A stretch of 64,000 nucleotides of DNA from positions 3,906,001-3,970,000 of the forward strand of contig NZ_OZ156465.1 of the NCBI RefSeq assembly GCF_964212655.1, read 5' to 3'. The stretch is from Candidatus Thiodiazotropha sp. LNASS1. GTDB lineage: Bacteria > Pseudomonadota > Gammaproteobacteria > Chromatiales > Chromatiaceae. This document shows, one piece after another, positions 4,812-51,658 of this stretch (positions are counted from its first letter, which is position 1; every line of letters starts with the position of its first letter). Under the pieces are notes generated by a model. That model made no database searches. It was given only the letters and a program-made list of their open reading frames with translations, and was not told the origin of the DNA. The position numbers and the translations under genes were made by a program.

Positions 4812-4848
4812 CCCGTTCCGGTCTGGGAATGTTTTCGAGTGAGGTTAA

Positions 4849-33703: not shown

Positions 33704-34033
33704 TTATGGCGTCTGGCTGTTGAAGCTTGTCTCTTCCGGAACACCGGTGTTGTCGATGACCACCTGTTTGACATTTGGCATTCGGGACAGGATATAGCCG
33801 CCCATCATCAAGGCGAGTTGTTCATTATCGTTTTCCAGGGCGGTTAGCAATTTGCCGGCGACCAGTTGGCAGCGTTGAGTTGGATTAGGGTTTTTTACCC
33901 ATCTTTGGCCAATTTGCCAACCCCTGTCCATGTCTTTATCCATGTTGTCGAAGGACGTGCGCATGGTTTCAAGATAACCATCGGGGATCTTCAGGTCCAT
34001 TGACCAGTCATCAATAATTAGATTAAGTTGCAT
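33704..34033 (-). CDS. Conserved hypothetical protein, 109 residues
   Basis: Small acidic protein: MQLNLIIDDWSMDLKIPDGY at the start, then MDRGWQIGQRWVKNPN and KLLTALENDNEQLALMMGGY, ending in a predicted strand (VKQVVIDNTGVPEE). It looks like a folded single domain. I do not recognise a named family. It is convergent with the Sfum_1244-like gene. Confidence 0.65.
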   Translation of the reverse strand: MQLNLIIDDWSMDLKIPDGYLETMRTSFDNMDKDMDRGWQIGQRWVKNPNPTQRCQLVAGKLLTALENDNEQLALMMGGYILSRMPNVKQVVIDNTGVPEETSFNSQTP

Positions 34034-34138
34034 GACCCTGTAAAAATAAAAACTACTTGGTGATTCCGTTGAGAAGCTTCTGCCTCGATCAGGGCTTCAG
34101 CAGCTATGATCAGGCTCCAGAGAGGTAAAATCAAGCAT

Positions 34139-34525
34139 ATGGATGATCGGGAATTACTCGCATTGGTCGAGCTTGGAGGATATCCCAACTTGGTGCCTCT
34201 CTATCAACGCTATGGCTATCGAGTGGAGATGGTCAATTCGGTTCGCAAGGCGCAGGCATGGCTGAAGCGGCACAGACCCAGCGTTGTTGTGGCGGAGTTT
34301 TATGCCGATCCTCAATTTCGCGATCGACTCAGTAATCTTGAATCTCTGCTCGCCACGCTTCAGCGTTATCAGGCGAATGCGAATGCGAATGCGAAGGTGA
34401 TTGTGTTGTTAGATAAAAAACACCTGGATAATTTAGAGAAAGTGAAACAACGCTATCCTGTGCATGCTGTTTTAACCTTCCCCCTCAACGAGCCAGGCAT
34501 GCAGGCCGTGTTGGAGAATCTGTAA
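34139..34525 (+). CDS. Hypothetical protein upstream of the Fe(II) dioxygenase
   Basis: Protein of 128 residues with alternating strands and helices (PSVVVAEFYAD, AKVIVLLDKKHL, HAVLTFPLNEP), similar in rhythm to a receiver-like alpha/beta fold but without its Asp motif. It contains an Ala-Asn run encoded by a GCGAAT repeat (34373-34395). It is 10 bp upstream of the dioxygenase gene and likely co-transcribed. The start could instead be the ATG at 34106. Confidence 0.6.
   Translation: MDDRELLALVELGGYPNLVPLYQRYGYRVEMVNSVRKAQAWLKRHRPSVVVAEFYADPQFRDRLSNLESLLATLQRYQANANANAKVIVLLDKKHLDNLEKVKQRYPVHAVLTFPLNEPGMQAVLENL
34373..34395 (+). repeat. Intragenic hexamer repeat, GCGAAT x3 plus a partial unit
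   Basis: Perfect GCGAAT units encode alternating Ala-Asn inside the ORF at 34139-34525. The reading frame survives any change in copy number. Confidence 0.8.
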
Positions 34526-34535
34526 GGAGAAGCGG

Positions 34536-35210
34536 ATGCTGGTGCAAATCGATGATCTTTTACAGCAGGCGCAGTTGGACAAGATCGATCAAATATTGTC
34601 GCAGGCGGAATTCGTCGATGGCAAGTTGACTGCAGGCAAAGCGGCACAGCGGGTGAAAAACAACCAGGAGTTGAAGGGTGAGCCAAGGCAGATGGAGCTG
34701 CTGATACGAATACTCACCAGTGCCATGGCGAATAATGTGACCTTTCGTTCTGCGGTCCTGCCATACCGCATGGCAGATCCTATTTTCGCCCGCTACCAAC
34801 CGGGCATGACCTATGGCGACCATGTGGATGACCCGTTGATGGGGCTCAGCGGACAACGCTTTCGCAGCGACGTCTCAATGACAATCTTCCTGCGTGAACC
34901 CGAGACCTATGAGGGTGGGGAGTTGGTGGTGCGCACCACATTTGGAGACAAACGGGTAAAGTTACCTGCGGGCAGTGCGGTGATCTATCCCTCATCGAGT
35001 CTGCACCATGTCGCTGAGGTGACCAAGGGAGAACGCCTGGTGGCACTGGCTTGGATTCAAAGTTACGTGCGGGATCCGGCGAAACGTGAGCTGTTGTATG
35101 AACTGGATCAAGCCAGGGAGCATCTGTTGGCAACGGTGCCGGACACAGAGAGCACCGGTTTAGTGGACAAGTCCTACACAAATCTGTTGCGGATGTGGGG
35201 GGATGTATAG
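34536..35210 (+). CDS. Fe(2+)-dependent 2-oxoglutarate dioxygenase, PiuC/YbiX family
   Basis: PKHD-type hydroxylase of 224 residues. The Fe(II) ligands are His and Asp in YGDHVDDPLM and the distal His in SSLHHVAEVTKGERLVALAW; the Arg of the 2-oxoglutarate site is in the same segment. Length and the C-terminal helical tail match PiuC/YbiX proteins, which are often linked to iron uptake. The true substrate is unknown. It is downstream of a hypothetical gene (gap 10 bp) and convergent with the sigma factor gene. Confidence 0.9.
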   Translation: MLVQIDDLLQQAQLDKIDQILSQAEFVDGKLTAGKAAQRVKNNQELKGEPRQMELLIRILTSAMANNVTFRSAVLPYRMADPIFARYQPGMTYGDHVDDPLMGLSGQRFRSDVSMTIFLREPETYEGGELVVRTTFGDKRVKLPAGSAVIYPSSSLHHVAEVTKGERLVALAWIQSYVRDPAKRELLYELDQAREHLLATVPDTESTGLVDKSYTNLLRMWGDV

Positions 35211-35242
35211 TTGCTGCCAGACTGTGGTGTTCACTCTCGAAG

Positions 35243-35827
35243 TCATGTTTCCAAACACCCCCTCAGTTGCTCCAGGCCTCTGCGAATCTGTGTCTTGACA
35301 GTACCTATCGGCGTATTGGTCCGGCTGGCAAGTTCACTGTGTGTGAGGCCTCTGAAATAGGCCAGACTGATCATCTGTCGCTGGTTTTCATTCAGTTGAT
35401 CCAAACAGGCCATAAGTTGGGTTTTCTCTTTGCTATGTGAACAAAATTGCAACGGCAGAGGCTGTGTGTCTATCTGTTCTATGAAGCTATAGCCATCAGA
35501 CTCCATCACCTCCCGCTGACGTCGCCGTAGATGATCAAGCGCCTGGTTACGAGCAATAGTCGTCATCCATGTCATCGGTGCCGCCAGATGGGTCCGATAG
35601 CTTTCCGCTTTATTCCAGATCTTGATATAAGCATCCTGCAGGCACTCTTGGGCAGTCGCCTCTCTGTTCAGTATATGCAGCACAACACCGTACAGTTTTG
35701 CCGACGTGAGTTGATATAGACGGGCGAACGCACTCCGGTCATTCAATGCACAAGCAGCCAGGAGTTCTTTTAGTTCTTGATTTCTCTGGTTATTATATTT
35801 TGGTTGTTCTTCGTTTACGCTTGACAT
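35243..35827 (-). CDS. ECF-type RNA polymerase sigma factor (sigma-70 family), no adjacent anti-sigma
   Basis: Sigma factor of 194 residues with only regions 2 and 4. Region 2 includes ECLQDAYIKIWNKAESYR and PMTWMTTIARNQALDHLRRR. Region 4 includes LAYFRGLTHSELASRTNTPI then GTVKTQIRRGLEQLR, a HTH. It resembles SigK-like ECF factors, which normally precede an anti-sigma gene; here the downstream neighbour is a convergent dioxygenase 32 bp away, so none is in place. Confidence 0.88.
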   Translation of the reverse strand: MSSVNEEQPKYNNQRNQELKELLAACALNDRSAFARLYQLTSAKLYGVVLHILNREATAQECLQDAYIKIWNKAESYRTHLAAPMTWMTTIARNQALDHLRRRQREVMESDGYSFIEQIDTQPLPLQFCSHSKEKTQLMACLDQLNENQRQMISLAYFRGLTHSELASRTNTPIGTVKTQIRRGLEQLRGCLET

Positions 35828-36371
35828 GACCCACTCCTAGGGAATGTTCTGAATGGTTGTATTGAGCGTAAAGCGTAGATGTCTAGCTATCGTCACAGAT
35901 ATATAACAATTTATGAATGCACAGTCAGAACGGAGAGGGTGGCGGTTGCCTGTAATCCCAACCGAAAGATCTGTCTCAATAATAGATACTGATCACCCTT
36001 GAGATACGATCTGTCCCCGCACCATATCGAGTGATACAGATAACTCTGTATTGTTTAGAAGGCCTGTCTTCATGGAAATCGAGTGGAGGTGACGATCTCG
36101 AACTGTGGGTTTATCCAAACATCGAAGTGCATGGAATGATAATCGTTAACCGGGTGCATCTGCAGTGAGTTTGGTTGTTATATGCGGGTGGGCAGGTAAA
36201 GCTCAGATTCATGCTGCATCGTATGGTTGAGGATGAGCAACTATAAGCGGACCCAATGGCGGATATGGGGAGGTCTATCGGAATGACACGACCGTACCCT
36301 GCAGAATCAACTCAGGGTACGGCTGCCTTGTTTGGAAAGTAACGACGTCAGTCGTTTCGCATCATATTCAA
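35828..36371. other. Intergenic region, about 540 bp
   Basis: Contains the sigma factor promoter region and, at 36292-36322, a perfect 10-bp inverted repeat (CCGTACCCTG / CAGGGTACGG) 50 bp past the DsrC-like gene. The hairpin lacks a T run on either strand, so it is either a weak terminator or an operator. I see no ORF I would support. Confidence 0.5.
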
Positions 36372-36716
36372 TCAGTAACCACCCTTGCGCTTGGTCTCGG
36401 GCAGACCGGCGATTTTGCTTGCCTGTTTCGCCGGTCCCTTGGGGAAGTGAATGTAGAGGGATTTTGCATCCACTTTGCCCTCGTCGGTCCACACACCCTT
36501 GAAGTGTTTGACCATATTGCGCTCGTTGGGCTGGTTGCCATTGTTATTGAAATATTCGTCGCGCAGAAAGTTGATGATTTCCCAAGCCTTTTCGCTCAGA
36601 TTGATGCCTTCGCTGTCAGCGATGGCCTTGGCCACATCCTCGCTCCATTCAGTGTGATCGACCAGGTAGCCGTTGGCGTCGGCCTCAATAGTTTTACCGT
36701 TTACTTCATAAGACAT
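36372..36716 (-). CDS. DsrC/TusE family protein lacking both conserved cysteines
   Basis: Protein of 114 residues aligned along its full length with DsrC: an N-terminal NGKTIEADANGYLVDHTEWS, a central LSEKAWEIINFLRDEYF and a C-terminal arm FPKGPAKQASKIAGLPETKR. In true DsrC the arm reads KQAC and ends in a penultimate Cys; here the first is Ser and the tail is KRKGGY, so neither sulfur-carrying Cys exists. Such Cys-free homologues have been proposed to be regulatory (RspA-type). It is the last gene of a minus-strand group starting near 38423 and beside the dsr operon. Confidence 0.88.
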   Translation of the reverse strand: MSYEVNGKTIEADANGYLVDHTEWSEDVAKAIADSEGINLSEKAWEIINFLRDEYFNNNGNQPNERNMVKHFKGVWTDEGKVDAKSLYIHFPKGPAKQASKIAGLPETKRKGGY

Positions 36717-36798
36717 TGATCTCTCCTTACAAACAGATACAACGGCGGGGTCATTTCCCCGTCTATTTTGGAATTTATTCGGTTATAGGCGCGGTATC

Positions 36799-37467
36799 TT
36801 ATACAGTCTTGTGTGGTACAAACAAGCCAAAGCCGCGAATTCGATGAGGGCCGATACCGTACTCCTGTAATGTGACCGCATCGTCCAGGGATAATCCGGC
36901 GACCATCAGGCTACGGGTAAGGAGTGGTGCCTGCGGGGTGGTGAACAGGGTGCCTTTACCGCACAGTACCTTTTTAAAACGCAGGTTGAGAGACTGCAAT
37001 GACTCGACCGCAGACTGAACAAACTCATCCTCGCTCTGACCGGTCTCACAGGCCAGGTAACGGCAGTAGAGCGTTGTGGTCATTGCGAGAAACCGGGTGT
37101 GCGACTTGCCGATCTCCATTGCAAATCCATCGATGTCCAGGGTTTTACCGCTGAGTTCGGCGGCATCGTCGAGCCTCTCTTTTGGCAGTCTCAGGATCAG
37201 AGGTGTGCGACGAGAGAGATAGAGGGTTTCGCCACCGTCGCTGGGCCTTTCCCAGCCATTGCCTGAGTCGGCGCCGTAAATCAGGTGGAGACCGGCTTGC
37301 GGCTCCAGGGGAAACCAGGGCAGTTCTCTATGTATCGCATCGGAGAGGGACCAGGCATGGTCGACGGGCAGAGAGGGGCATTTGATCCTGAATATCAGAT
37401 CGACCACATTATCCGGTACCACAAACTGCTCTTCATCCTGTTCTTCCTGCCAGAAGGTCGCGTTCAT
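36799..37467 (-). CDS. Cas6/Cmx6-like RNA-binding protein, orphan
   Basis: Protein of 222 residues. It resembles the Cas6 family called Cmx6 in type I-MYXAN systems: VVDLIFRIKCPSLPVDHAWS at the N-terminus with a candidate catalytic His, GADSGNGWERP, LYLSRRTPLILRLPKERLDD, LLTRSLMVAGLSLDDAV, and a C-terminal glycine-rich loop GIGPHRIRGFGLFVPHK, the Cas6 RNA-binding signature. There is no CRISPR array and no other cas gene in the 64 kb. It lies 4 bp from the unknown gene upstream and 82 bp from the DsrC-like gene downstream. Its RNA target, if any, is unknown. Confidence 0.75.
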   Translation of the reverse strand: MNATFWQEEQDEEQFVVPDNVVDLIFRIKCPSLPVDHAWSLSDAIHRELPWFPLEPQAGLHLIYGADSGNGWERPSDGGETLYLSRRTPLILRLPKERLDDAAELSGKTLDIDGFAMEIGKSHTRFLAMTTTLYCRYLACETGQSEDEFVQSAVESLQSLNLRFKKVLCGKGTLFTTPQAPLLTRSLMVAGLSLDDAVTLQEYGIGPHRIRGFGLFVPHKTV

Positions 37468-37471
37468 TTAA

Positions 37472-38242
37472 TCAAACCTCGTCGGCTGGGATTTTCGCCC
37501 GCAGAGCATCCCTGTCGAACCACCAGTCTCCATCGATGATGACTTCGAGTACCTTGGCCAACCTGGGTAGAAACTTGCCCGGATCGTTCAATTCCATGCG
37601 CTCGACCCAGAAATCGAAGATCTCCTGCTCTTCCACTTGACTGTGGCGTCTGGCGACCTGGCCAAGCAACTGGTTGGTAAAGAACTTGAGATCCTCACGC
37701 TCCTGCCCCTGGGCACGGATATCGACCACGTAACAGGCGGTCACCGCAGCCACTGCCGCACCGTCTGATTTGTCGGGGGTCTCATCGATGAGATGTTGCA
37801 GCATGGCCACGCTTAGCTCGGGGTCAATGGGGAATGTCACACCTAGCCAGATTCCGTGGGCCAGCGCCTTGATCGAATTCGTCTGCTCCGATTGGTAAAG
37901 GATGTCGCAGGCTTCAACGGCCCTCAGCCACAACTCCTCGTCGAGTGCCTGATCCAGTACAATTTTACCGATCTGCCCGGCCTCCTGCCGCCTGTCCAGG
38001 TCGAGAAGGATATAGGCGGATTCGAGCTGTAGTTCAAGACGCTTGTCATTGGGGACATCATCAGACAGGGCAGACAGCTCTTCACGCTTCTCGTCGAGTT
38101 TGAGCTGCAGCAGCTTGCTTGATTTTATCGCATCTTCCGAACTCTCGTTGTCACCGATAAAGGCTTCAGATTCCAGGTACTTCACAATAATCTTCTCAGT
38201 TGTTGCCGGGGCCTGTTGACTGACCCTGAATGTCTCTGTCAC
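37472..38242 (-). CDS. Unknown helical protein upstream of the Cas6-like gene
   Basis: Soluble, acidic, mostly helical protein of about 256 residues, with TPR-like spacing in RLELQLESAYILLDLDRRQE and similar segments. No TM, Cys pair or nucleotide motif. It ends in IIDGDWWFDRDALRAKIPAD. No family recognised. The frame is open to an ATG at 38314 (280 residues), but those first 24 residues overlap the 58-residue ORF in another frame and look less protein-like, so I favour the GTG at 38242, 5 bp after that ORF ends. Neither start has a good ribosome-binding site. Confidence 0.6.
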   Translation of the reverse strand: MTETFRVSQQAPATTEKIIVKYLESEAFIGDNESSEDAIKSSKLLQLKLDEKREELSALSDDVPNDKRLELQLESAYILLDLDRRQEAGQIGKIVLDQALDEELWLRAVEACDILYQSEQTNSIKALAHGIWLGVTFPIDPELSVAMLQHLIDETPDKSDGAAVAAVTACYVVDIRAQGQEREDLKFFTNQLLGQVARRHSQVEEQEIFDFWVERMELNDPGKFLPRLAKVLEVIIDGDWWFDRDALRAKIPADEV

Positions 38243-38246
38243 GACC

Positions 38247-38423
38247 TCAGGTGAAAGTCGCTTCCAGGCGGTCTTCCCAATTGTCGGGGGTGTCGGAAAA
38301 AGGGGGTTTGACATCGATACGAAAAAACATCTCAGTCTTCGACCTTTCCTTCACCACCTCCAGCAGTCTATCGAAGCTATCGACCTCTGGGTGTTGCATC
38401 ATTAATTCACTCAAATACAGCAT
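38247..38423 (-). CDS. 58-residue ORF at the head of the Cas6-like block
   Basis: ATG at 38423, TGA at 38247. The protein begins MLYLSELMMQHPEVDSFDRL and continues with a charged, mixed sequence (KTEMFFRIDVKPPF, DNWEDRLEATFT) that looks like a real small domain. It is the first gene after the divergent dsr promoter region and is followed directly by the 37472 gene. The ribosome-binding site is weak; the second or third Met (38402/38399) has a GAG 7 bases upstream. No family recognised. Confidence 0.5.
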   Translation of the reverse strand: MLYLSELMMQHPEVDSFDRLLEVVKERSKTEMFFRIDVKPPFSDTPDNWEDRLEATFT

Positions 38424-38633
38424 TTTTGACTTTGTCCCTGCGGTCTGGCGATTGCCGTAGCAAAACGCAGTAAAATACTCAGGTATTGATATTGAACATC
38501 ATGTGGGATGCTCGATCAAGGCTCTTCTGACCAAGTTTATCGGTAAAACCTACCCTTATGAAAGTAAGGGAGTGTTTTGAATATTAGAAATGAATTAAAG
38601 ACTTTAACATATTGTTATTACTGTGTATTTTGT

Positions 38634-38645
38634 GTCAAATTTGAC
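38634..38645. promoter_or_regulatory. Palindrome GTCAAATTTGAC, candidate operator
   Basis: A perfect 12-bp palindrome, 263 bp upstream of dsrA. Its regulator is unknown. Confidence 0.45.
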
Positions 38646-38674
38646 CCCATTTTACCCCAAAATTCATGAAAATA

Positions 38675-38690
38675 TATCCCAAATGGGATA
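38675..38690. promoter_or_regulatory. Inverted repeat TATCCC-AAAT-GGGATA, candidate operator
   Basis: A perfect 6-4-6 inverted repeat, about 220 bp upstream of dsrA, in an AT-rich stretch. Its regulator is unknown. Confidence 0.45.
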
Positions 38691-38907
38691 GTCATAAATA
38701 TCTCTTTCCCTCCCATCGGAAGGATATTGGTCTGCATTAGACATCCCTAAAATTTCGCACCAGTAGAAACAGGCCTGTTGCCTGTAGCGCGGTTTTGGAT
38801 TGCAGGTTTGTAGCCGTTTTTCTATGCCAAGGTGTTTGGCGCAGCTTGAACATCAGGCGAAGATTCAGCAAAAAGACCTGAACAAACGACCATTGGGAGA
38901 AAGAGTG

Positions 38908-40149
38908 ATGGCAAAACAGATGCATGATACCCCCATGCTTGACCAGCTGGAGAGCGGCCCCTGGCCCTCGTTTGTCACCGGCCTCAAGCGTCTCGCCAAC
39001 GATAACGACATGATGGTTGACCTGCTGGGTCAGCTCGAGACCTCATACGAGACACGCAAAGGTTACTGGAAAGGCGGTACCGTTGGCGTGATCGGTTATG
39101 GTGGCGGTATCATCCCCCGCTTTACCGAACTCAAGGGTGAGGACGGAAAAGCATTGTTCCCCGCAGCAGCCGAGTTCCACACTCTTCGCGTCATGCCGCC
39201 TCCGGGCATGCACTATGACAGCAACACCATCCGCAAATTCTGTGACATCTGGGAGAAGTACGGATCCGGTCTGATCGCATTCCATGGCCAGTCCGGTGAT
39301 ATCATGTTCCAGGGTTGCACCACCGACAACGTTCAGCCCGCATTTGACGAGATTAACGAGATGGGCTTCGATCTTGGTGGTGCCGGTCCGGCTGTACGTA
39401 CCGGTATGTCCTGTGTCGGTGCCGCTCGCTGTGAGAATTCATGTTTCGATGAAGGCCGTACCATGCGTATGCTGGTCAACAACGCCCTCGATGACATGCA
39501 TCGTCCCGCGCTGCCCTACAAATTTAAATACAAGGTTTCAGGTTGTCCCAACGACTGCATGAACTCCGTGCAGCGCGCCGACCTGGCTACCATCGGTACC
39601 TGGCGCGACGATATGAAGGTCGACCAGGACGAGGTCAAGAACTTCGTCGCTGATAAAGGCCGCAAGTATGTCATCGACAATGTCATCACCCGTTGCCCGA
39701 CCAAGGCCCTGTCCCTGAATGACGACGATACCCTGGCGGTCGACAATCCTTCCTGTGTCCGTTGCATGCACTGCATCAACGTGATGAACAAGGCACTCTC
39801 TCCCGGTGACGATAAGGGTATTACCCTGCTCTGTGGCGGTAAGCGAACCCTTAAGATCGGCGATCTGATGGGTACCGTGATCGTGCCTTTCCACAAGCTG
39901 GAGACCGATGAGGATTTCGAGTGGTTGGAAGAGTTGGCGACAGAGATCCTCGACTTCTTCGCCGAAAACGCCCTCGAGCACGAGCGTACCGGTGAGATGA
40001 TCGAGCGTATCGGCCTGGTCAACTTTCTGGAAGGTGTCGGCCTCGAGATCGACCCCAACATGATCGAGCGTCCGCGTATGAATCCTTACTTCCGTAGCGA
40101 CGACTGGGATGAGGAAGCGGCCAAGTGGGCTGAGAGAAAGGCCCAGTAA
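38908..40149 (+). CDS. dsrA: Reverse-type dissimilatory sulfite reductase, alpha subunit
   Basis: With DsrB it forms the cytoplasmic A2B2 sirohaem enzyme that oxidises DsrC-bound sulfur to sulfite. 413 residues. Sirohaem-4Fe-4S ligands sit in CVGAARCENSC and SGCPNDCMNS; a ferredoxin-like insert has CPTKAL and CVRCMHCINVM. The ATG at 38908 has a GGGAGA ribosome-binding site; the open frame extends upstream but lacks protein character. The operon context (dsrEFH, dsrL) identifies the oxidative type. Confidence 0.98.
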   Translation: MAKQMHDTPMLDQLESGPWPSFVTGLKRLANDNDMMVDLLGQLETSYETRKGYWKGGTVGVIGYGGGIIPRFTELKGEDGKALFPAAAEFHTLRVMPPPGMHYDSNTIRKFCDIWEKYGSGLIAFHGQSGDIMFQGCTTDNVQPAFDEINEMGFDLGGAGPAVRTGMSCVGAARCENSCFDEGRTMRMLVNNALDDMHRPALPYKFKYKVSGCPNDCMNSVQRADLATIGTWRDDMKVDQDEVKNFVADKGRKYVIDNVITRCPTKALSLNDDDTLAVDNPSCVRCMHCINVMNKALSPGDDKGITLLCGGKRTLKIGDLMGTVIVPFHKLETDEDFEWLEELATEILDFFAENALEHERTGEMIERIGLVNFLEGVGLEIDPNMIERPRMNPYFRSDDWDEEAAKWAERKAQ

Positions 40150-40165
40150 CACCGATCTAGATATT

Positions 40166-40196
40166 AGGGGGCAACGGGTTCGCTCGATTGCCCCTT
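40166..40196 (+). other. Hairpin between dsrA and dsrB
   Basis: GGGGCAA and TTGCCCC form a 7-bp stem with a 13-base loop, followed by TTAAAA rather than a T run. It is more likely an mRNA processing or stability element than a full terminator. Confidence 0.45.
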
Positions 40197-40233
40197 AAAA
40201 CGAATCAATTACCCTATTTTTTTGGAGGTAGGT

Positions 40234-41304
40234 ATGTCGGAAGTTCGTATGCCGATTGAGAGTGGCGTCCCGGAGATGGAGCCCTACTTACACCCCGTGC
40301 TGAAGAATAATTACGGCCAGTGGGCTTATCATGAGCGTCCACGCCCCGGTGTGTTGCATCACGTCGCCAAAAGCGGTGACAGCATCTGGACCGTACGTGC
40401 CGGCACCCAGCGTCAGATGGATGTCTACACCATCCGCAAGCTGATGGACATCGCCGACGAGTTTGCCGAAGGTTATGTCCGCTTCACCATTCGCTCCAAC
40501 ATCGAGTACATGGTGAGTGAGGAGTCCAAGGTTCAGCCTCTGATCGACAAGCTGGAGTCCGAAGGTTTCCCGATCGGTGGTACCGGCAACTCTGTCTCAA
40601 TGATCTCTCATACCCAGGGTTGGTTGCACTGCGACATTCCCGGTACCGACGCATCCGGTGCTGTGAAGGCTTTGATGGATGACCTCTACGATGATTTCGT
40701 GAAGGAAGAGATGCCGAACCGTGTGCGAATCACCACCTCCTGCTGCCAGATCAACTGTGGTGGTCAGGGTGATATCGCCATCAACATTCAGCATACCAAG
40801 CCGCCGAAAATTGACCATACCCAGGTCGCCAACGTTTGTGAGCGTCCTTCGGTCGTGGCCCGCTGCCCGGTAGCTGCTATCCGTCCCGCCATGGTCAACG
40901 GTAAGCCCTCCCTTGAAGTGGACGAGAAGAAGTGCATCTGCTGCGGTGCCTGCTTCCCGCCCTGTCCTCCCATGCAGATAAACGATCCGGAGCATTCCAA
41001 GTTCGCGATCTGGGTGGGTGGCAAGAACTCCAATGCCCGATCCAAGCCGACCTTCCACAAGCTGGTGGCTGCCGGTGTGCCCAACAATCCGCCCCGCTGG
41101 CCCGAAGTTTCCACCGTGGTCAAGCAGATCCTCAGCGCCTACAAGGAAGACGCCAAGGATTGGGAGCGTATCGGTGAGTGGGCTGAGCGTATCGGTTGGC
41201 CGAAATTCTTCGAGAAGACCGGTCTGCCTTTTACCAAATATCACATCGATAACTGGCGTGGCAGCCGTAACAACCTGAATGCCTCTGCGCATATCCGCTT
41301 CTAA
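40234..41304 (+). CDS. dsrB: Reverse-type dissimilatory sulfite reductase, beta subunit
   Basis: Partner of DsrA; carries the catalytic sirohaem in the family. 356 residues. Motifs TTSCCQINCGGQGDIAI, RCPVAAIRP and the ferredoxin segment CICCGACFPPCPP are present. The ATG at 40234 has GGAGG about 5 bases upstream. It starts 84 bp after dsrA. Confidence 0.98.
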   Translation: MSEVRMPIESGVPEMEPYLHPVLKNNYGQWAYHERPRPGVLHHVAKSGDSIWTVRAGTQRQMDVYTIRKLMDIADEFAEGYVRFTIRSNIEYMVSEESKVQPLIDKLESEGFPIGGTGNSVSMISHTQGWLHCDIPGTDASGAVKALMDDLYDDFVKEEMPNRVRITTSCCQINCGGQGDIAINIQHTKPPKIDHTQVANVCERPSVVARCPVAAIRPAMVNGKPSLEVDEKKCICCGACFPPCPPMQINDPEHSKFAIWVGGKNSNARSKPTFHKLVAAGVPNNPPRWPEVSTVVKQILSAYKEDAKDWERIGEWAERIGWPKFFEKTGLPFTKYHIDNWRGSRNNLNASAHIRF

Positions 41305-41344
41305 TTCAGGAAAATCGTTTGGGCAATAACAGGAAGGTCTACTG

Positions 41345-41737
41345 ATGAAATTCGCGATTCAGGTAAATGAGGGTCCTTATCAGCACCAAGCCACGGACTC
41401 TGCATACCAGTTCACCAAAGCTGCACTGGAAGCCGGACATGAGATTATGCGTGTCTTCTTCTATCACGACGGTGTCAACAACGGCACCAATCTGACAACA
41501 CCTCCGCAAGATGATCGGAACATTGTCAAGCGTTGGTCCGAGTTGGGTAAACAGCACGATCTCGATCTGGTGGTTTGCGTGGCCGCCGCCCAGCGGCGGG
41601 GTATCGTCGACGAGGGTGAGATGCAGCGCAACGGTAAGGATGCGCAGAATCTTGCTGAAGGTTTTCGCATCTCCGGCCTCGGTCAGTTGGTCGAGGCGGG
41701 CATCCAGTCGGAACGACTGGTGGTATTCGGTGATTGA
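41345..41737 (+). CDS. dsrE: Sulfur relay protein DsrE
   Basis: Part of the DsrE2F2H2 complex that passes persulfide sulfur to DsrC. 130 residues. The active-site Cys78 is present in LDLVVCVAAAQRRG, as in A. vinosum DsrE. This Cys marks the oxidative pathway. Ribosome-binding site AGGAAG. Confidence 0.97.
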   Translation: MKFAIQVNEGPYQHQATDSAYQFTKAALEAGHEIMRVFFYHDGVNNGTNLTTPPQDDRNIVKRWSELGKQHDLDLVVCVAAAQRRGIVDEGEMQRNGKDAQNLAEGFRISGLGQLVEAGIQSERLVVFGD

Positions 41738-41752
41738 GTATAGGGGTTGACG

Positions 41753-42163
41753 ATGTCTGAAGATGTTAAAAAGTTCATGTACCTCAACCGTCGGGCCCCC
41801 TACGGCACCATCTATGCCTGGGAGTCACTGGAGGTTGTATTGATCGGCGCTGCGTTTGATCAGGATGTCAGCCTGGCTTTTCTGGATGACGGGGTCTATC
41901 AGCTGGTCAAAGGACAGGATACGGCTGGAGTGGATATGAAGAACTTCTCACCCACCTACCAGGCGCTTGGTGATTACGACGTCACCAAACTGTATGTAGA
42001 GAAGGAGTCATTGGAGGAGCGAGGATTGACCTTGGATGACCTGATGCCTCTAACCTACGAGGATGAAGATGATGATTGGGCGGAAAAGGACTCTATCCGT
42101 GTGGTCAGTCGCGCTGAAATGACGGACATCATGGAAGAACAAGATGTCATGTTCAGCTTCTAA
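41753..42163 (+). CDS. dsrF: Sulfur relay protein DsrF
   Basis: Structural partner of DsrE and DsrH. 136 residues, no catalytic Cys, as is normal for DsrF. FMYLNRRAPYGTIYAWESLE and FDQDVSLAFLDDGVYQL are typical. I chose the ATG at 41753 with AGGGG 8 bases upstream; the TTG at 41747 overlaps it. Confidence 0.95.
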   Translation: MSEDVKKFMYLNRRAPYGTIYAWESLEVVLIGAAFDQDVSLAFLDDGVYQLVKGQDTAGVDMKNFSPTYQALGDYDVTKLYVEKESLEERGLTLDDLMPLTYEDEDDDWAEKDSIRVVSRAEMTDIMEEQDVMFSF

Positions 42164-42178
42164 GTCGGAGACGAGTGA

Positions 42179-42484
42179 ATGAGTACCCTACATACTGTTA
42201 ACAAATCACCTTTTGAAAAGTCTTCGATGGATAGCTGTCTGGCCTACGCCAAAGCAGGCAGTTCTGTCCTTATGTACGAAGACGGCATTTATGGCGCGAT
42301 CGAAGGTACTGACTGCACACAGAAGATTGCTGCCAAAGATGGTGTGAATTTCTATGTACTGGGCCCGGACCTTAAGGCTCGCGGTGTAAGCGAAGACAAG
42401 GTCGCTGACGGCATCGAAATTGTGGACTACGCCAGGTTTGTCAGTCTCGCCGCAGAGAATGACAAGGTACAGGCCTGGGTCTGA
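42179..42484 (+). CDS. dsrH: Sulfur relay protein DsrH
   Basis: Third subunit of DsrEFH. 101 residues. The conserved Cys20 is in KSSMDSCLAYAKAG. It follows dsrF by 15 bp. Confidence 0.95.
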   Translation: MSTLHTVNKSPFEKSSMDSCLAYAKAGSSVLMYEDGIYGAIEGTDCTQKIAAKDGVNFYVLGPDLKARGVSEDKVADGIEIVDYARFVSLAAENDKVQAWV

Positions 42485-42528
42485 TTGTATTAACTGAATA
42501 ACTTTCAACTCTATCTGGGAGAGAAAAT

Positions 42529-42861
42529 ATGGCTATCGAAGCTAACGGCAAAACCTTCGAAACTGATGAAGAGGGTTACCTGACCAATCTGGCCGATTGG
42601 GAGCCCGCTGTTGCCGAGGCAATGGCTGCGGAAGATGACCTGCCACTGACCGACGAGCATTGGGAGATCATCAACTTCCTGCGTGAGTACTATGAAGAAT
42701 ATCAGATTGCTCCTGCGGTTCGTGTACTGACCAAGGCTGTAGGTAAGAAGCTGGGTAAGGATAAAGGTAACTCAAAATATCTTTATGCCCTGTTTCCATA
42801 TGGCCCAGGCAAGCAGGCTTGCCGTTTTGCCGGTCTGCCTAAACCGACTGGCTGTATCTAA
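42529..42861 (+). CDS. dsrC: DsrC, sulfur carrier protein
   Basis: Carries sulfur as a persulfide or trisulfide between DsrEFH, DsrAB and DsrMKJOP. 110 residues. The flexible C-terminal arm FPYGPGKQACRFAGLPKPTG has Cys98, and the penultimate residue is Cys109; both are needed for full DsrC function. The second family member in this window (36372-36716) lacks both. A perfect 12-bp hairpin lies just after the stop (42872-42906). Confidence 0.98.
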   Translation: MAIEANGKTFETDEEGYLTNLADWEPAVAEAMAAEDDLPLTDEHWEIINFLREYYEEYQIAPAVRVLTKAVGKKLGKDKGNSKYLYALFPYGPGKQACRFAGLPKPTGCI

Positions 42862-42871
42862 AGGCACGTGC

Positions 42872-42906
42872 TTGCGATGGAGGTGCTTATTGTCCCTCCA
42901 TCGCAA
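42872..42906 (+). other. Strong hairpin between dsrC and dsrM
   Basis: TTGCGATGGAGG and CCTCCATCGCAA form a perfect 12-bp stem with an 11-base loop. No T run follows directly. It could stop part of the transcripts or protect the dsrABEFHC segment from 3' decay, so raising DsrC output relative to the membrane complex. Confidence 0.7.
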
Positions 42907-42939
42907 ATCACTTGATCATTTTTTGAGGAACGCAGGATT

Positions 42940-43662
42940 ATGTCATTTGCCTACGCGTTGCTGTTTATCGTAGCGACCTTAGTTCTTGTCCTTGGACTGG
43001 CCAGGAAAATTGTCCAGTACGCCAGAACGCCTGCTCCATTAAAGATTCCGACCACACCGGCGCCTGTCAATCAGACTGGTGTGGTTCTACGGATGTTTCG
43101 TGAAGTCGTTTTTTTTGAGAGTTTGTTCAAGAGCACCAAGTGGACCTGGGTCTTCTCATGGATGTTTCACATGGGGCTGTTTCTGGTTCTCGCGCGGCAT
43201 GTCCGTTATTTTATCGACCCTGTGTGGCTGCCGATACAATTGATTCAACCCTTTGGTAAATATGCGGCCTTTGCCATGATTGCAGGGCTTGCCGGACTGC
43301 TGATCCGGAGAATATTCGTCGATCGCGTCCGCTACATCTCCTCTCCATCCGATTATCTTTGGCTGCTGCTGCTGATTTTTATCGGCCTGAGCGGTGCGAC
43401 AATGACATTCCTGATCCATACTGATGTGGTTGCCGTTAAGCAGTTCTTTACCGGTTTCTGGACATTCAGCGGCGGCGATCTTCCCATGGACCCGGTTCTG
43501 CTTGTTCATCTGTCCCTGGTGGCGGTACTGATGCTGCTTCTGCCGTTCAGTAAATTGCTGCACATACCGGGTGTCTTTTTCAGCCCAACCCGTAATCAGG
43601 TGGACAATCCGCGTGAAAAACGCCATCTGGTTGATTGGGCAAGAAAGCTCGAAGAATCCTAA
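42940..43662 (+). CDS. dsrM: DsrM, haem b membrane subunit of DsrMKJOP
   Basis: NarI-like cytochrome b subunit of 240 residues with about 5-6 TM segments (FAYALLFIVATLVLVLGLA near the start, FAMIAGLAGLLI and LWLLLLIFIGLSGATMTFLI later). His residues in FHMGLFLVLARHVRYF and LVHLSLVAV are candidate haem ligands. It exchanges electrons between DsrK and quinones. Confidence 0.95.
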   Translation: MSFAYALLFIVATLVLVLGLARKIVQYARTPAPLKIPTTPAPVNQTGVVLRMFREVVFFESLFKSTKWTWVFSWMFHMGLFLVLARHVRYFIDPVWLPIQLIQPFGKYAAFAMIAGLAGLLIRRIFVDRVRYISSPSDYLWLLLLIFIGLSGATMTFLIHTDVVAVKQFFTGFWTFSGGDLPMDPVLLVHLSLVAVLMLLLPFSKLLHIPGVFFSPTRNQVDNPREKRHLVDWARKLEES

Positions 43663-43680
43663 GGCCTATGAGGTTTACAA

Positions 43681-45222
43681 ATGGCTGGAGCTGAGTTTGA
43701 AACACCGGAACTGACAGAATTCATTGAGGTTCCGAAACTGGTTGACGGTACCATGGAGCATATCACCTGCTTCGTGGCCAAGCCCGAACATCAGGAGGCT
43801 TTGGGCTTTCCTGGTGAAAAGGTGGAGAATTGGAAGGAGGTCGCCATCGACAAGATGGGCGATCTGTTAAGCCGCTATCGTTCATTCCAGGTGTTCATGG
43901 ATGCCTGTGTGAAGTGCGGTTCCTGTACCGACAAATGCCACTACTATCTCGGTACGCAAGATCCGAAAAATATGCCGGTGGGCAGGCAGGATCTGTTGCG
44001 TAAGGTCTATCGCCGCTATTTCACCTTCGCCGGCAAGTACTTTCCCAAACTGGTCGGTGCGGTGGATCTCACCGAAGTGGTGATCGACGACTGGTACAGC
44101 TATTTCCATCAGTGCTCCCAGTGCCGTCGCTGTTCGGTCTTCTGTCCCTATGGCATCGATACAGCGGAGATCTCGATGGCGGCCAGGGAGATACTCGACT
44201 CCATCGGCATCGGACAAAAATACTGCAACGAGATTATCGGCAAGGTCCACAAGATTGGTAACAACCTGGGACTGCCAGGGCCTGCCATTGAAGACACCCT
44301 TGAGGGTCTGGAAGAGGACGTCTGGGAGGAGACCGATGTAGCGGTCAAATATCCGCTGGACGTAAAAGGCGCTGAAATCCTACTCGTGACACCTTCTGCT
44401 GACTTTTTCGCTGAGCCCCATGTGGACGGTTTGATCGGTTACGGCAAGGTTTTTCACGAAGCGGGCGTCAGCTGGACGCTCAGCACCAAGGCCTCCGAGG
44501 CAGGCAACTTCGGCATGTTTATCGGCAGCTACGAGAATATGCGTCGCGTCTCCCTGCGTATACGCGAGGCGGCGTTGGAGTTGGGAGTGAAGCGCATTGT
44601 CTTCGGAGAATGCGGGCACGCCTGGCGCATCGCCTACAGCTTTTTGAATACATTGGCAGGACCATTCGATTTTCTCAACCCCGACTACCCGGTGCCGCAG
44701 CACATATGCGAGTTCACCCTGAATGAGATAGAGCAGGGCACCCTGGAGTTCGACAAGTCTGAGAACGACGATATGTCGATCACCTTCCACGACTCCTGCA
44801 ACGTGGCCCGCGCATCGCGCATGGGCGACAAGCCGGGCGGTCAGTTCGAGATACCCCGCAAGGTGATCAAGGCGGTTGTCAACAACTATCACGACATGGA
44901 GTGGGACACCATCCATGAGCGTACCTTCTGCTGCGGCGGTGGCGGCGGTCTGCTTACCGACGACCTGATGGAGGTCCGGGTGAAGGGCGCCAAGCCGCGA
45001 ATGACGGCATTCAAGAATGTCATGGACGAAAAGGGCGTTACTCACCTTGCGGCAATCTGCGCCATATGCAAGAGCCAGTTCAGCAAGGTGTTCCCCTATT
45101 ACGGCATGGATATGTTTCAGATCGTCAGTGTTCATCAGCTGGTGAGTAATGCAATTGTGATGAACAGAAAGACGCCGCCCGAGGAGGCTCCCGGTTACGG
45201 CGAAGACGAAGATGATGAATAG
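43681..45222 (+). CDS. dsrK: DsrK, iron-sulfur subunit of DsrMKJOP (HdrD-like)
   Basis: Cytoplasmic catalytic subunit of 513 residues thought to act on DsrC disulfide or trisulfide. Two 4Fe-4S motifs, CVKCGSCTDKCHYYLG and CSQCRRCSVFCPYGID. A noncubane-type CCG domain follows: FGECGHAW, FHDSCNVARASR and RTFCCGGGGGLL, then CAICKSQF. It is 18 bp after dsrM. Confidence 0.96.
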   Translation: MAGAEFETPELTEFIEVPKLVDGTMEHITCFVAKPEHQEALGFPGEKVENWKEVAIDKMGDLLSRYRSFQVFMDACVKCGSCTDKCHYYLGTQDPKNMPVGRQDLLRKVYRRYFTFAGKYFPKLVGAVDLTEVVIDDWYSYFHQCSQCRRCSVFCPYGIDTAEISMAAREILDSIGIGQKYCNEIIGKVHKIGNNLGLPGPAIEDTLEGLEEDVWEETDVAVKYPLDVKGAEILLVTPSADFFAEPHVDGLIGYGKVFHEAGVSWTLSTKASEAGNFGMFIGSYENMRRVSLRIREAALELGVKRIVFGECGHAWRIAYSFLNTLAGPFDFLNPDYPVPQHICEFTLNEIEQGTLEFDKSENDDMSITFHDSCNVARASRMGDKPGGQFEIPRKVIKAVVNNYHDMEWDTIHERTFCCGGGGGLLTDDLMEVRVKGAKPRMTAFKNVMDEKGVTHLAAICAICKSQFSKVFPYYGMDMFQIVSVHQLVSNAIVMNRKTPPEEAPGYGEDEDDE

Positions 45223-45301
45223 AACACGATAACTAGCGCAAACTACGATTCCTACCCTGGGGTAGGGCACGACCAAGACAAGTTCCAAGAGGAGACTGAA
45301 A

Positions 45302-47248
45302 ATGGCAACTCCTAGTGAAGAGATGAAAAAACAGATTACTTGGCGCCGTTTTGAAGACGGTGAAAACCAGTGGGATGACTGGGGTGATAAAATCTTCCTT
45401 GAAGACACCTCCTATAAGTGCCCTACCTATATCAATCGTACACCACCTTGCCAGGGCGGTTGCCCCTCCGGCCACGATATCCGCGGTTGGCTGGCAATCG
45501 TGCGTGAACAGGAAAAGCCTTCAGAAGGTCTGGAGTGGGAGCAGTATGCATTCGAGCGTGCTGTAGAGGCCAATCCCTTTCCTTCCATGATGGGCAGAGT
45601 ATGTCCGGCGCCTTGTCAGGATGGGTGTAACCGTAACGACGTTGAGGACTTCGTAGGTATCAACGCTGTTGAACAATACATCGGTGATACCGCTATCGAG
45701 AAGGGCTTCAAATTCACTCCGGGCGCTGATACCGGTAAGAAGGTGGCTGTAATCGGTGGTGGTCCCGCCGGTATGGCGGCTGCTTTTCAACTGCGTAAGA
45801 TGGGTCATGCTGTGACTGTCTTCGAGAAGGATCCCGAGCTTGGCGGTATGATGCGCTATGGTATTCCAAACTATCGTATCCCACGTGACAAACTGCAGGC
45901 GGAGATCCAACGTATCGTCGATATGGGCGTTGAGATCCGGGCCGGTGTCAAGGTCGGCTCCGATGTTCCTGTAGCCGATATTGAAAAAGAGCACGATGCA
46001 GTTCTCTGGGCTCTTGGGTGCCAGAATGGCCGCGACCTGCCGGTGGATGGTTGGGTCGGTACCCCCAATTGCGTATCCGGTGTGGCTTTCCTCAAGGCCT
46101 TCAATGAAGGCCGCATGAAAGTAACCGCTGAAAAAGTGGTCTGTATCGGTGGTGGTGACACCTCTATCGACGTGATCTCTGTGGCCAGACGCCTGGGTAC
46201 GAACAGTGCAGCCGGTAATCCTGAAGACGTCGTGCTCGATACCAGCATGAACCAGGACGATGCACTGGCCGAAGGGGCAGCGCCTGCCGACGCGACACTG
46301 ACATCCCTGTTCACCAAAGACAAGATGTTTGCTGCCCAGCACGAGATACACGATGCGCTGCACGAGGGTTGTGAGATCCTGGACGGTGTGATGCCGTTGG
46401 AAGTGATTGTCGGTGATGCTGGCCGCGCCACAGGACTCAAAGTGTGTGACTGTACCATGGATGGTATGACTCCGATTCCTACCGAGGGTACGGAGCGCAT
46501 ATTGGAGGCCGATCTCATCGTTTCAGCGATTGGTCAGAGTGCCGATATGGAAGGTCTAGAAGAGATGGCCAACGACAAAAACCTGATGGACGCTGACAAG
46601 TTTTATCAGGTTCCAGGTAGGGAAGGCCACTTCGTGGCCGGCGATATCATTCGTCCTCACCTGTTGACCACTGCCATCGGTCAGGCCTCTATCGCCTGCG
46701 ACAGTATCGATGCCTATTTGACCAAGAAAGAACTTGCCAAGCGTCCGAAGGTTGATGTGCACCATTTCGACCTCCTGGACAAGCTGAAAGAGGCCCACCT
46801 GGAACCTGAGGCCTTTGATAGCAGTGAAGGCGACATGCGCGGTACCAGCGATGCCAAGTATGCAGTGCATAATTATGAAGACCGTTCTCACCAGGAAGTG
46901 ATTCCGGCAGATGATCTGTTCCTCGGGCACTTCTCTTTCACACCGCGCCTACTGCGTTCCGAAGATGTGCCCACAGCAGATGAAGTACTGCATCATTTCA
47001 AGGAGCGCATGAACGGTCTGAATCAGGAGCAGGTACAGGAAGAAGCCAAACGTTGCATGAGCTGCGGCATGTGCTTCGAGTGCGACAACTGCATCGTGTT
47101 CTGCCCGCAAGACGCGGTCTTCCGGGTCAAGAAAGCGGAATCGACCACGGGTCGATATGTTGATACCGATTACAACAAGTGTATCGGTTGCCATGTTTGC
47201 ACCGACGTTTGTCCCACAGGATATATCCAGATGGGGTTAGGTGAATAG
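45302..47248 (+). CDS. dsrL: DsrL, NAD(P)H:acceptor oxidoreductase
   Basis: Iron-sulfur flavoprotein of 648 residues that interacts with DsrAB and takes electrons from sulfur oxidation to NAD(P)+. N-terminal Cys cluster CQGGCPSGHDIRGWL and CPAPCQDGCNR; FAD loop VAVIGGGPAGMAAAFQLRK; NAD(P) loop VVCIGGGDTSIDV; C-terminal ferredoxin domain CMSCGMCFECDNCIVFCP and CIGCHVCTDVCPTG. The C-terminal ferredoxin is the DsrL-1 type found in sulfur oxidisers. Confidence 0.96.
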   Translation: MATPSEEMKKQITWRRFEDGENQWDDWGDKIFLEDTSYKCPTYINRTPPCQGGCPSGHDIRGWLAIVREQEKPSEGLEWEQYAFERAVEANPFPSMMGRVCPAPCQDGCNRNDVEDFVGINAVEQYIGDTAIEKGFKFTPGADTGKKVAVIGGGPAGMAAAFQLRKMGHAVTVFEKDPELGGMMRYGIPNYRIPRDKLQAEIQRIVDMGVEIRAGVKVGSDVPVADIEKEHDAVLWALGCQNGRDLPVDGWVGTPNCVSGVAFLKAFNEGRMKVTAEKVVCIGGGDTSIDVISVARRLGTNSAAGNPEDVVLDTSMNQDDALAEGAAPADATLTSLFTKDKMFAAQHEIHDALHEGCEILDGVMPLEVIVGDAGRATGLKVCDCTMDGMTPIPTEGTERILEADLIVSAIGQSADMEGLEEMANDKNLMDADKFYQVPGREGHFVAGDIIRPHLLTTAIGQASIACDSIDAYLTKKELAKRPKVDVHHFDLLDKLKEAHLEPEAFDSSEGDMRGTSDAKYAVHNYEDRSHQEVIPADDLFLGHFSFTPRLLRSEDVPTADEVLHHFKERMNGLNQEQVQEEAKRCMSCGMCFECDNCIVFCPQDAVFRVKKAESTTGRYVDTDYNKCIGCHVCTDVCPTGYIQMGLGE

Positions 47249-47256
47249 GAGCTGAG

Positions 47257-47727
47257 ATGCGTAGTTCTCTCATCAGCAAAAGACTCCTCATCATACTGCT
47301 GGCTGGTCTGCTGTTACCCGCCATGCAGGCCATCGGTGAGAGTCGATATGTAACCAAAAATTCCAAGGCAGCCTCGTTGGATAGCTGTGTGGCGCCGACC
47401 GACGAGATACGTCGCAACCATATGGATTTTCTCCAACATAGCAGGGACGATACGGTTAGGGATGGAATGCGTGGTTTGAAATACAGTCTTTCCGAGTGCA
47501 TCGATTGCCACGCCTCAAGGGATTCCAGCGGCCAGGCTGTATCGGTCACCAGTGAAGGCGAATTTTGCCAGGCTTGTCACGGTTACGTTGCGGTGAGCCC
47601 CGCTTGTTTTCAGTGTCATCGTACGAAACCGATGGAGAGTGGAGGGGGAGATTCGCTTGGTTACCATTCGGATGAGCATACCCCTGTCTGGGATGTGCAA
47701 CAGCCTGCTGGCAGACAGAGAGACTGA
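47257..47727 (+). CDS. dsrJ: DsrJ, periplasmic trihaem cytochrome c
   Basis: 156 residues with a signal sequence or anchor (RLLIILLAGLLLPAMQA). Three CxxCH haem sites: CIDCH, CQACH and CFQCH. A conserved Cys before them, in SLDSCVAPTDEIRRNHM, matches the unusual axial ligand described for DsrJ. It is the periplasmic electron or sulfur end of DsrMKJOP. Starts 8 bp after dsrL. Confidence 0.95.
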   Translation: MRSSLISKRLLIILLAGLLLPAMQAIGESRYVTKNSKAASLDSCVAPTDEIRRNHMDFLQHSRDDTVRDGMRGLKYSLSECIDCHASRDSSGQAVSVTSEGEFCQACHGYVAVSPACFQCHRTKPMESGGGDSLGYHSDEHTPVWDVQQPAGRQRD

Positions 47728-47729
47728 TC

Positions 47730-48482
47730 ATGAGCAATAAGAGTGACCAGCCGAGTGTAGACCGCCGCCAGTTTATCGGCGGAACCGTAGCAGCTGCCGG
47801 GGCGTTGACCCTGGCGCCTGGCGTCATTTTGCACGCTGCAGGTGAAACAGATGATGCACCTTCGGGGGCGTCCGGCAAACACCGCTGGGGCATGCTGATC
47901 GATGCCAATAAGTGTGCCGAGGGTTGCAGTGCCTGTGTTGAGGCCTGTAACAACGAACATGGCCTGACCGGGTATGACAGGCCAGCGACTGACGCGGTCT
48001 GGATCCGTCCGGTCAAACTGAAGGACAAGCAAACCGGCCATGTTAATCGCATGGTTATGATGTGCCAACATTGTGAACACCCTCCATGTGTCGATGTCTG
48101 TCCCACCAATGCATCATTCAAACGAATTGATGGTGTCGTGCTTGTCGATCGCCACCGTTGTATCGGTTGTCGCTACTGTATGATGGCGTGTCCCTATAAG
48201 GCACGCTCCTTCGTGCATGAGGCACTGACTGATCAATCGGTGAATGCGCCCCGTGGCAAGGGGTGTGTCGAGTCCTGCACCCTTTGTGTACACAGGATTG
48301 ATGCCGGTGTTATGCAGACGGCCTGTCAGGAGGCATGCGACAAGGAGGGTCATTCAGCGATTTTATTTGGTGATTTGAAGGATCCCAACAGCGAAATCAG
48401 TCGGGTTCTCAAATCTCGCAACTCAGTACAGATCCGGGCCGACCTCGAGTTGAATACCGGTGTTCGTTACCTCAACCTGTGA
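47730..48482 (+). CDS. dsrO: DsrO, periplasmic ferredoxin subunit of DsrMKJOP
   Basis: 250 residues with a Tat signal (DRRQFIGGTVAAAGALTLAP). Four 4Fe-4S cluster motifs: CAEGCSACVEACNN, CQHCEHPPCVDVCP, CIGCRYCMMACPYKA, and CTLCVHRI with the distal CQEAC. It passes electrons between DsrJ and DsrP. It is 2 bp after dsrJ. Confidence 0.96.
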   Translation: MSNKSDQPSVDRRQFIGGTVAAAGALTLAPGVILHAAGETDDAPSGASGKHRWGMLIDANKCAEGCSACVEACNNEHGLTGYDRPATDAVWIRPVKLKDKQTGHVNRMVMMCQHCEHPPCVDVCPTNASFKRIDGVVLVDRHRCIGCRYCMMACPYKARSFVHEALTDQSVNAPRGKGCVESCTLCVHRIDAGVMQTACQEACDKEGHSAILFGDLKDPNSEISRVLKSRNSVQIRADLELNTGVRYLNL

Positions 48483-48504
48483 TCTGTAGGGAGCTTGGAA
48501 TCAT

Positions 48505-49692: not shown

Positions 49693-49716
49693 CCCTTCAG
49701 ACCGGATTACTGCTGA

Positions 49717-49750
49717 AAATCCATCACCGCTTGCCGGTGGTGGATTTTTT
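49717..49750 (+). terminator. Rho-independent terminator between dsrP and dsrN
   Basis: AATCCATCACCG and CGGTGGTGGATT form a stem of about 12 bp (one G-T pair), with a 4-base loop, followed by TTTTTAT. It should end most dsrA-P transcripts. Confidence 0.8.
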
Positions 49751-49834
49751 ATCTACGAGGTAGGATGGGCTCCTGTAAAGGGTATACCAACCCGCCCCTG
49801 TTGAGTGTGATTGATCCTCTATCGATGGTTTCCC

Positions 49835-51226: not shown

Positions 51227-51260
51227 ACTACTGTAACTGCAAAATTCAAACAGGTGACAG

Positions 51261-51581: not shown

Positions 51582-51658
51582 AACAGACTGCCTAAACATG
51601 ATTATGCGTGGAATGAAATTCCCGTTGGCTTCGAAAGAAACAGGAATTGTTGTCTGAA

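Follow-up and report, generated by a model that had tools for sequence, protein, structure and literature searches.

A Cas6-family protein apparently living outside CRISPR: linkage to the oxidative dsr locus and to a cysteine-free DsrC homologue

We analyzed a window of 64,000 nt (G000:C1:3906001-3970000) of a complete 4.75 Mb genome, in which the gene for a Cas6-family protein (36799..37467, minus strand) belongs to a four-gene block that diverges from dsrA, the first gene of the dissimilatory sulfite reductase (dsr) operon (38908..40149, plus strand). Because this Cas6 has 98% identity to its counterpart in 'Ca. Thiodiazotropha endolucinida' and 99% to the one in a metagenome-assembled genome (MAG) from a Ctena orbiculata symbiont, the host is judged to be a lucinid-clam symbiont of the genus Thiodiazotropha. 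Cas6 is known as the enzyme that matures the RNAs (crRNAs) of clustered regularly interspaced short palindromic repeats (CRISPR). Among the genomes compared, Cas6 and dsrA co-occur almost without exception, regardless of the presence of Cas1, and the usual partner of Cas6 is a DsrC homologue without Cys, of a kind that has been called RspA. We put the chances at about even that the dsr-linked Cas6 has left CRISPR for a permanent place in the oxidative Dsr locus of Gammaproteobacteria and controls, together with RspA, a sulfur-oxidation transcript. A more specific version, to which we give slightly less than even chances, is that the dsr-bearing Gammaproteobacteria domesticated, perhaps on a single occasion, a nuclease that processed CRISPR RNA, and that this enzyme is now an almost obligate partner of reverse-Dsr sulfur oxidation, forming a sulfur-responsive RNA-cutting switch with the Cys-free DsrC homologue; we know of no comparable regulatory module in any other metabolic pathway. 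The names O58 and H236 used below were coined in the present analysis, while G and L numbers label genomes and loci.

Cas6 was present in 64 of 93 relatives (the genome itself included). A strong dsrA match was obtained in 61 of these 64, and in the other three (G022, G030, G044) dsrA starts at a contig end, giving 64/64 when such starts are included, while none of the 29 relatives without Cas6 gave a dsrA match better than 2.9e-15. In a sample of 321 genomes of the class, which the searches for both genes are taken to cover, 97 genomes had both, 7 had Cas6 only, 6 had dsrA only and 211 had neither (the p-value of this association ignores kinship and is a guide only). Nine of the 13 exceptions were inspected, and in each of them the contig breaks off no more than 2.4 kb away in the direction in which the partner would be expected: the first 0.2 kb of dsrA is visible at the contig edge in G756, the contig of G570 begins inside H236, and that of G649 ends 120 bp past the start of dsrA. 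Among the other four, the upstream side of dsrA in G520, G528, and G557 lies, by its coordinates, at most 0.7 kb from the contig start. Across a sample of 398 genomes of the phylum, PF09559 (the Pfam family of this Cas6) was detected in five, all of them with dsrA. The two genes share a contig in 73 of the 97 genomes of the class, and 72 of these 73 pairs are within 5 kb of each other (median gap 1.7 kb). The initial annotation had set dsr genes and CRISPR arrays against each other as companions of the gene; the gene tracks dsrA, not arrays.

Counted away from dsrA, the minus-strand order is O58 (38247..38423), H236 (37472..38188), Cas6, and the DsrC homologue (36372..36716). The initial annotation had placed all four open reading frames (ORFs) correctly, and the 484-bp gap (38424..38907) that it described between the starts of O58 and dsrA was also exact. 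Its four-gene order was surveyed in 112 genomes at hand, which are not a random sample and in which 52 loci, mostly short, have no dsrA within reach. The complete block was found in 68/112 and Cas6 with RspA in 94/112, and in all 60 loci that include dsrA the block is divergent from it. As the order is conserved across genera and families, a chance assembly is excluded. Four genomes that we call beta-like, which is a guess (G308, G335, G359, G453), carry Cas6-RspA without O58 or H236, four reduced genomes of 1.0–1.1 Mb carry O58-Cas6-RspA with no H236 nearby, and H236, found in 61 of the 93 relatives, is missing from three Cas6-bearing ones (G071, G076, G089). Since O58 and/or H236 are absent from all these genomes, Cas6 and RspA look like the core of the block.

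A simple exact-repeat scan detected no CRISPR array in the window, in agreement with the initial annotation, and Cas1, the only cas family sought genome-wide, was absent from the whole 4.75 Mb genome. The neighbors of Cas6 in the dsr-linked loci are dsr and other genes, not other cas genes. A further 80 Cas6-bearing genomes were drawn from a set of 97 after leaving out less complete ones, those with Cas6 only and two with a broken Cas6, and 40 of the 80 had Cas1. With the relatives added, 68 of 144 Cas6-bearing genomes lack Cas1, the host among them, so that CRISPR is optional for carriers of this gene; the four 1.0–1.1 Mb genomes also kept Cas6 without Cas1. A simple scan for repeats in 178 records (1.83 Mb) gave no clear array beside the block; it picked up repeats in L107, a locus without Cas6, and three repeat copies in L176. 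These 18-bp copies (L176:16598-16724), at intervals that resemble those of a very short array, are 6.7 kb away from a Cas6 in a Cas1-bearing genome. No relative of Cas6 was found in phage records by tblastn.

By profile and model the gene encodes a full-length Cas6. The ORF matched Pfam PF09559 with 173 bits (E 8.7e-51, curated cut-off 26.7) and the PADLOC Cas6 model with E 6.8e-49, while the score against the type I-MYXAN Cas6/Cmx6 model TIGR02807 (94 bits) was slightly under the equivalog cut-off of 98.85. The predicted structure has the double ferredoxin-like (repeat-associated mysterious protein, RAMP) fold of Cas6, which bears out the Cas6-like identity claimed by the initial annotation. 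The glycine-rich loop and N-terminal His that it pointed out were examined in 129 loci, reduced to 100 distinct proteins after matches covering < 150 profile positions were dropped: His37, in the first helix and presumably catalytic by analogy with other Cas6, is present in 99/100, and G204, G206, G212, and G214 of the loop (204-214) in 99–100/100. An additional loop, SxNGWxRP (68-75), has each of its residues in 93–97/100 and His61 is found in 97/100; residues 67-73 of the model have a predicted local distance difference test (pLDDT) score < 50. Ratios of nonsynonymous to synonymous divergence (pN/pS) between the window and 8 congeners (6 for dsrL, 3 for the PKHD-type gene described below) were 0.05 for dsrA and dsrC, 0.08 for dsrL, 0.09 for O58, 0.11 for RspA, 0.12 for the PKHD gene, 0.17 for H236, and 0.25 for Cas6, with high pS among congeners (0.47–0.73). 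Cas6 is thus under purifying selection.

The DsrC homologue was matched by PF04358 (E 2.6e-33, 115.1 bits, cut-off 24.9) and TIGR03342 (102.9 bits, cut-off 53.5), and it is, as first annotated, devoid of Cys; both C-terminal Cys of the sulfur-carrying DsrC are therefore missing and the protein ends in RKGGY. The 60 distinct RspA homologues located ≤ 1 kb downstream of Cas6 all end in GGY; Cys is absent from 56 of them, and four have a single one (a homologue in L096 retains Cys near the second position). In the gill metatranscriptomes of 'Ca. T. endolucinida' described in PMC13137333, dsrC (peg.3241) ranks with the most abundant transcripts, far exceeding the neighboring tusB-annotated gene, and a further DsrC/TusE gene, peg.3252, reaches 4825–6626 median transcripts per million (TPM); the gene numbering makes it most likely that peg.3252 encodes the RspA of the present block. 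PMC5944118 places the DsrC homologue THSYN_22565 of Thiodictyon syntrophicum shortly past the dsr cluster THSYN_22490-22545, a position that would fit the same gene order, and in PMC11267869 one DsrC homologue of Allochromatium vinosum, Alvin_1508, falls with dsrA on pyrite. Linkage, the KGGY end and probably high expression are the points in favor of some role for RspA.

O58, the 58-residue ORF of the initial annotation, is a real gene, with 13 homologues of 60–97% identity and a pN/pS of 0.086. It has no Pfam or NCBIfam match, and a PDB search gave a single match at E 2.2 and no relative. Homologues were present in 4/21 dsrA-bearing genomes tested outside the class and in 0/4 beta-like genomes inside it. 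In Cas6-free dsr loci outside the class (L109-L112, in G280, G193, G333, and G321) the O58 homologue diverges from dsrA, and in L110-L112 it adjoins genes that we read as a TauD-like dioxygenase and a siroheme-synthase-like protein. A TauD-like dioxygenase gene, again by our own reading, also lies between dsrA and O58 in the reduced genomes (L158-L161). The helical ORF was likewise borne out as a gene, that of the all-helical, possibly tetratricopeptide repeat (TPR)-like H236, but its listed start at 38314 was not: because homologues begin with MKYL, the start is most likely the GTG at 38188. H236 of the window has no Pfam or NCBIfam match, nor did sequence and fold searches of the PDB return a specific relative.

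If the dsr-linked Cas6 is indeed a component of the Dsr locus, it would still bind an RNA hairpin through its glycine-rich loop and would cut it with His37. RspA, with no sulfur-carrying Cys and a constant GGY arm, would bind to Cas6 or else to the sulfur relay (DsrEFH, DsrAB), and the binding or cleavage of RNA could in this way follow the sulfur load or the state of the DsrC relay. O58 and H236 would be accessory adaptors, and a transcript on which sulfur oxidation depends would come under post-transcriptional control, with a substrate that may be supplied in trans.

Several observations weigh against this reading. No RNA target of Cas6 was found among the candidates considered below, and the suggested contact between RspA and Cas6 has their linkage as its basis. 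As 48 dsrA-bearing genomes of the phylum sample, all outside the class, are without PF09559, the dsr pathway can do without Cas6 (the full dsr set was present in four of 16 Cas6-free loci examined outside the class). Linkage is not universal either, because Cas6 and dsrA are on separate contigs in 24/97 genomes and 41 kb apart in the complete genome G556. Of the genes compared, Cas6 shows the weakest constraint (0.25 vs. 0.05–0.17), and it does not appear in the table of 36 shared top genes, hypothetical proteins left out, in which PMC13137333 lists the probable RspA. Cas1 is more frequent in Cas6-bearing than in Cas6-negative relatives (36/64 vs. 7/29, kinship not controlled), and with Cas1 as the sole cas family sought, arrays or other cas genes may be located elsewhere in these genomes. 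Finally, Tyr replaces His37 in one lineage, G453, which means that cutting may be dispensable in some carriers.

This last substitution also favors the likeliest alternative, namely that cutting is not the task of this protein and that its Cas6 fold acts instead as a chaperone of RNA or as an adaptor in protein-protein contacts of the Dsr enzymes. The conserved SxNGWxRP loop and His61 hint at a surface not shared with the four cyanobacterial Cas6, but the near-invariance of His37 and of the loop glycines speaks for retained RNA cleavage, and we regard a pure binder or scaffold as unlikely.

A good deal less likely still is a tRNA, or another cellular RNA, as a target in trans, with Cas6 reading or cutting tRNA depending on how the tRNA is modified with sulfur. 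The relay for tRNA 2-thiolation includes TusBCD and TusE, to which DsrEFH and DsrC are related, RspA belongs to the DsrC/TusE family, and the four reduced genomes leave little intergenic room for hairpins in their dsr operons. RspA, however, lacks the Cys needed to carry sulfur.

We hold equally doubtful the idea that Cas6 processes the dsr mRNA at a hairpin in the leader, between dsrA and dsrB or between dsrC and dsrM, for instance by capping a dsrABEFHC message, although dsrC transcripts far outnumber those of its tusB-annotated neighbor. The initial annotation had counted at least three strong hairpins in this mRNA; strong hairpins proved real in the gaps after dsrA and after dsrC, and the leader as a whole is weakly structured. 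Folding of the intergenic gaps (identical gaps and those outside 15–500 nt dropped) gave a mean z of −2.78 for dsrC-dsrM (35/47 below −2), where a strong hairpin of variable sequence lies in the window (42862-42939) and in most homologous gaps, and of −2.22 for dsrA-dsrB (25/48 below −2). The reverse complements, however, score alike (−2.45 and −1.78). Strong as they are, these hairpins do not track Cas6, which counts against the preferred reading as well: the dsrC-dsrM hairpin is present in 3/4 Cas6-free dsr loci (z −2.4, −2.9, and −2.6; the fourth −1.25) and missing in 2/4 Cas6-bearing beta-like loci (z 0.6; the others −5.7 and −2.8), and the gap measures only 30–34 nt in the four reduced genomes that keep Cas6. 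Both hairpins were rejected as its substrate, and that of dsrC-dsrM is more likely tied to the high level of dsrC transcript. The dsrA leader was rejected too, with a mean z of −0.90 over 61 distinct leaders (identical 150-nt ends removed), against −0.31 for the reverse complement; the stretch upstream scores −1.05 on one strand and −1.37 on the other.

The third rejected candidate is the gap between Cas6 and RspA (36717..36798, minus strand), surveyed after dropping RspA matches < 70 bits and gaps > 1 kb. Hairpins occur there in the window and in many of the listed loci, but they are variable among relatives, and L061, L062, and the four beta-like loci have a weak one or none (0 to −5.6 kcal/mol). 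A T-rich run follows the hairpin in some congeners (L008, L014, L016), giving it the look of a terminator, and the hairpin is perhaps an attenuator that sets the levels of Cas6 and RspA apart. An Rfam scan of 34000-52000 gave no match with E up to 1. The interpretation given by the initial annotation is partly supported: the data favor a true Cas6 that is away from CRISPR and belongs with dsr, and they do not support the dsr mRNA hairpins as its target.

By far the least probable, and already largely refuted, is a remnant or trans-acting CRISPR factor merely maturing the crRNA of arrays elsewhere, as its sequence family and the Cas1 counts in Cas6-bearing genomes might suggest, since nearly half of these genomes lack Cas1, the link is instead a near-perfect one to dsrA, and the scanned records are without arrays save for the repeats in L107 and L176.

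The divergent control region contains a palindrome, TATCCCA..TGGGATA (TATCCCAAATGGGATA, 38675..38690), which is kept in the genus together with a promoter-like element upstream of dsrA, with weaker forms in several other genera. The palindrome is a candidate site for a dsr regulator. The sequence TATCCCNNNNGGGATA has no other exact copy in the genome, and as a mark of a regulon the palindrome was rejected: 1 exact and 9 one-mismatch sites vs. 5 for a reversed control delineate no clear regulon. The conserved element CCCATCGGAAGGATAT..GCATTAG..CTAAA (38712..38753, plus strand) may perhaps be the dsr promoter, and a hairpin in the dsrA leader, ACAGGC-N5-GCCTGT (38769..38785, plus strand), is retained in the genus despite variation in both its stem and its loop.

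A second dsrAB copy is located at G000:C1:4650917-4652119 (L090), with a TIGR02064 score above that of the window copy and no Cas6 block within the 19 kb examined; a second strong dsrA (~600 bits) was found in 17/21 members of the genus. On the side of the block away from dsrA, the window encodes a 2-oxoglutarate (2OG)-Fe(II) enzyme of the PKHD type (34536-35210), distinct from the TauD-like dioxygenase of the reduced genomes. In G556 (1.45 Mb, dsr-bearing) a stand-alone Cas6 (L162:8779-9441) diverges from genes that we read as RNase III-like and Era-like, with a thioredoxin-like gene downstream.

A branch of the Cas6 family thus apparently lives outside CRISPR, in the company of a core energy pathway. 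Its presence in almost all dsr-bearing Gammaproteobacteria examined, mostly next to the dsr genes, points to an RNA-binding enzyme that has been incorporated permanently into a central energy pathway. If this Cas6 cuts RNA, reverse-Dsr sulfur oxidation would be controlled in part by RNA processing, and it would become possible to test what Cys-free DsrC homologues do. For annotation, a PF09559 match in this class should be read with caution, as it usually marks dsr and not CRISPR (97 of 104 such genomes have dsrA).

No link of Cas6 to a dsr locus was found in the parts available of the open literature, including papers that contain both Cas6 and dsrAB/DsrC (PMC10952691, PMC5944118, PMC5728499, PMC7540712), CRISPR overviews (PMC8730458, PMC12669027), a paper on Dsr evolution (PMC11406059), and PMC11267869, PMC4164917, PMC3368242, and PMC13137333. 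The closest known relative is the type I-MYXAN Cas6/Cmx6 (TIGR02807, PF09559) of cyanobacterial plasmid loci (L099-L101), which shares the PF09559 domain, the His in an xDH motif and the glycine-rich C-terminal loop. The dsr-linked protein differs in having only 24–26% identity to it, a score under the family cut-off, the extra SxNGWxRP loop, and no adjoining cas3, cas5, cas7, or cas8. A Gloeobacter plasmid (L102:5977-6768) also carries a Cas6/Cmx6 with no other cas gene annotated nearby, followed downstream by a phosphoadenosine phosphosulfate reductase family gene and a cupin gene. The Cas6 of the type I-B CRISPR-associated transposon (CAST) Cascade (PDB 8fcj, 8fcu) has, in the profile alignment, Asn at the position of His37 and operates within Cascade, whereas the dsr-linked Cas6 is surrounded by dsr genes. 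RspA of the window is a member of the DsrC/TusE family by both profile cut-offs, but unlike the sulfur-carrying DsrC it lacks both C-terminal Cys and ends in KGGY. The exapted CRISPR parts treated in the accessible part of PMC8730458, where effector modules and repeats are named and no stand-alone Cas6 in a metabolic operon, are similar to the present case in that CRISPR components serve outside immunity.
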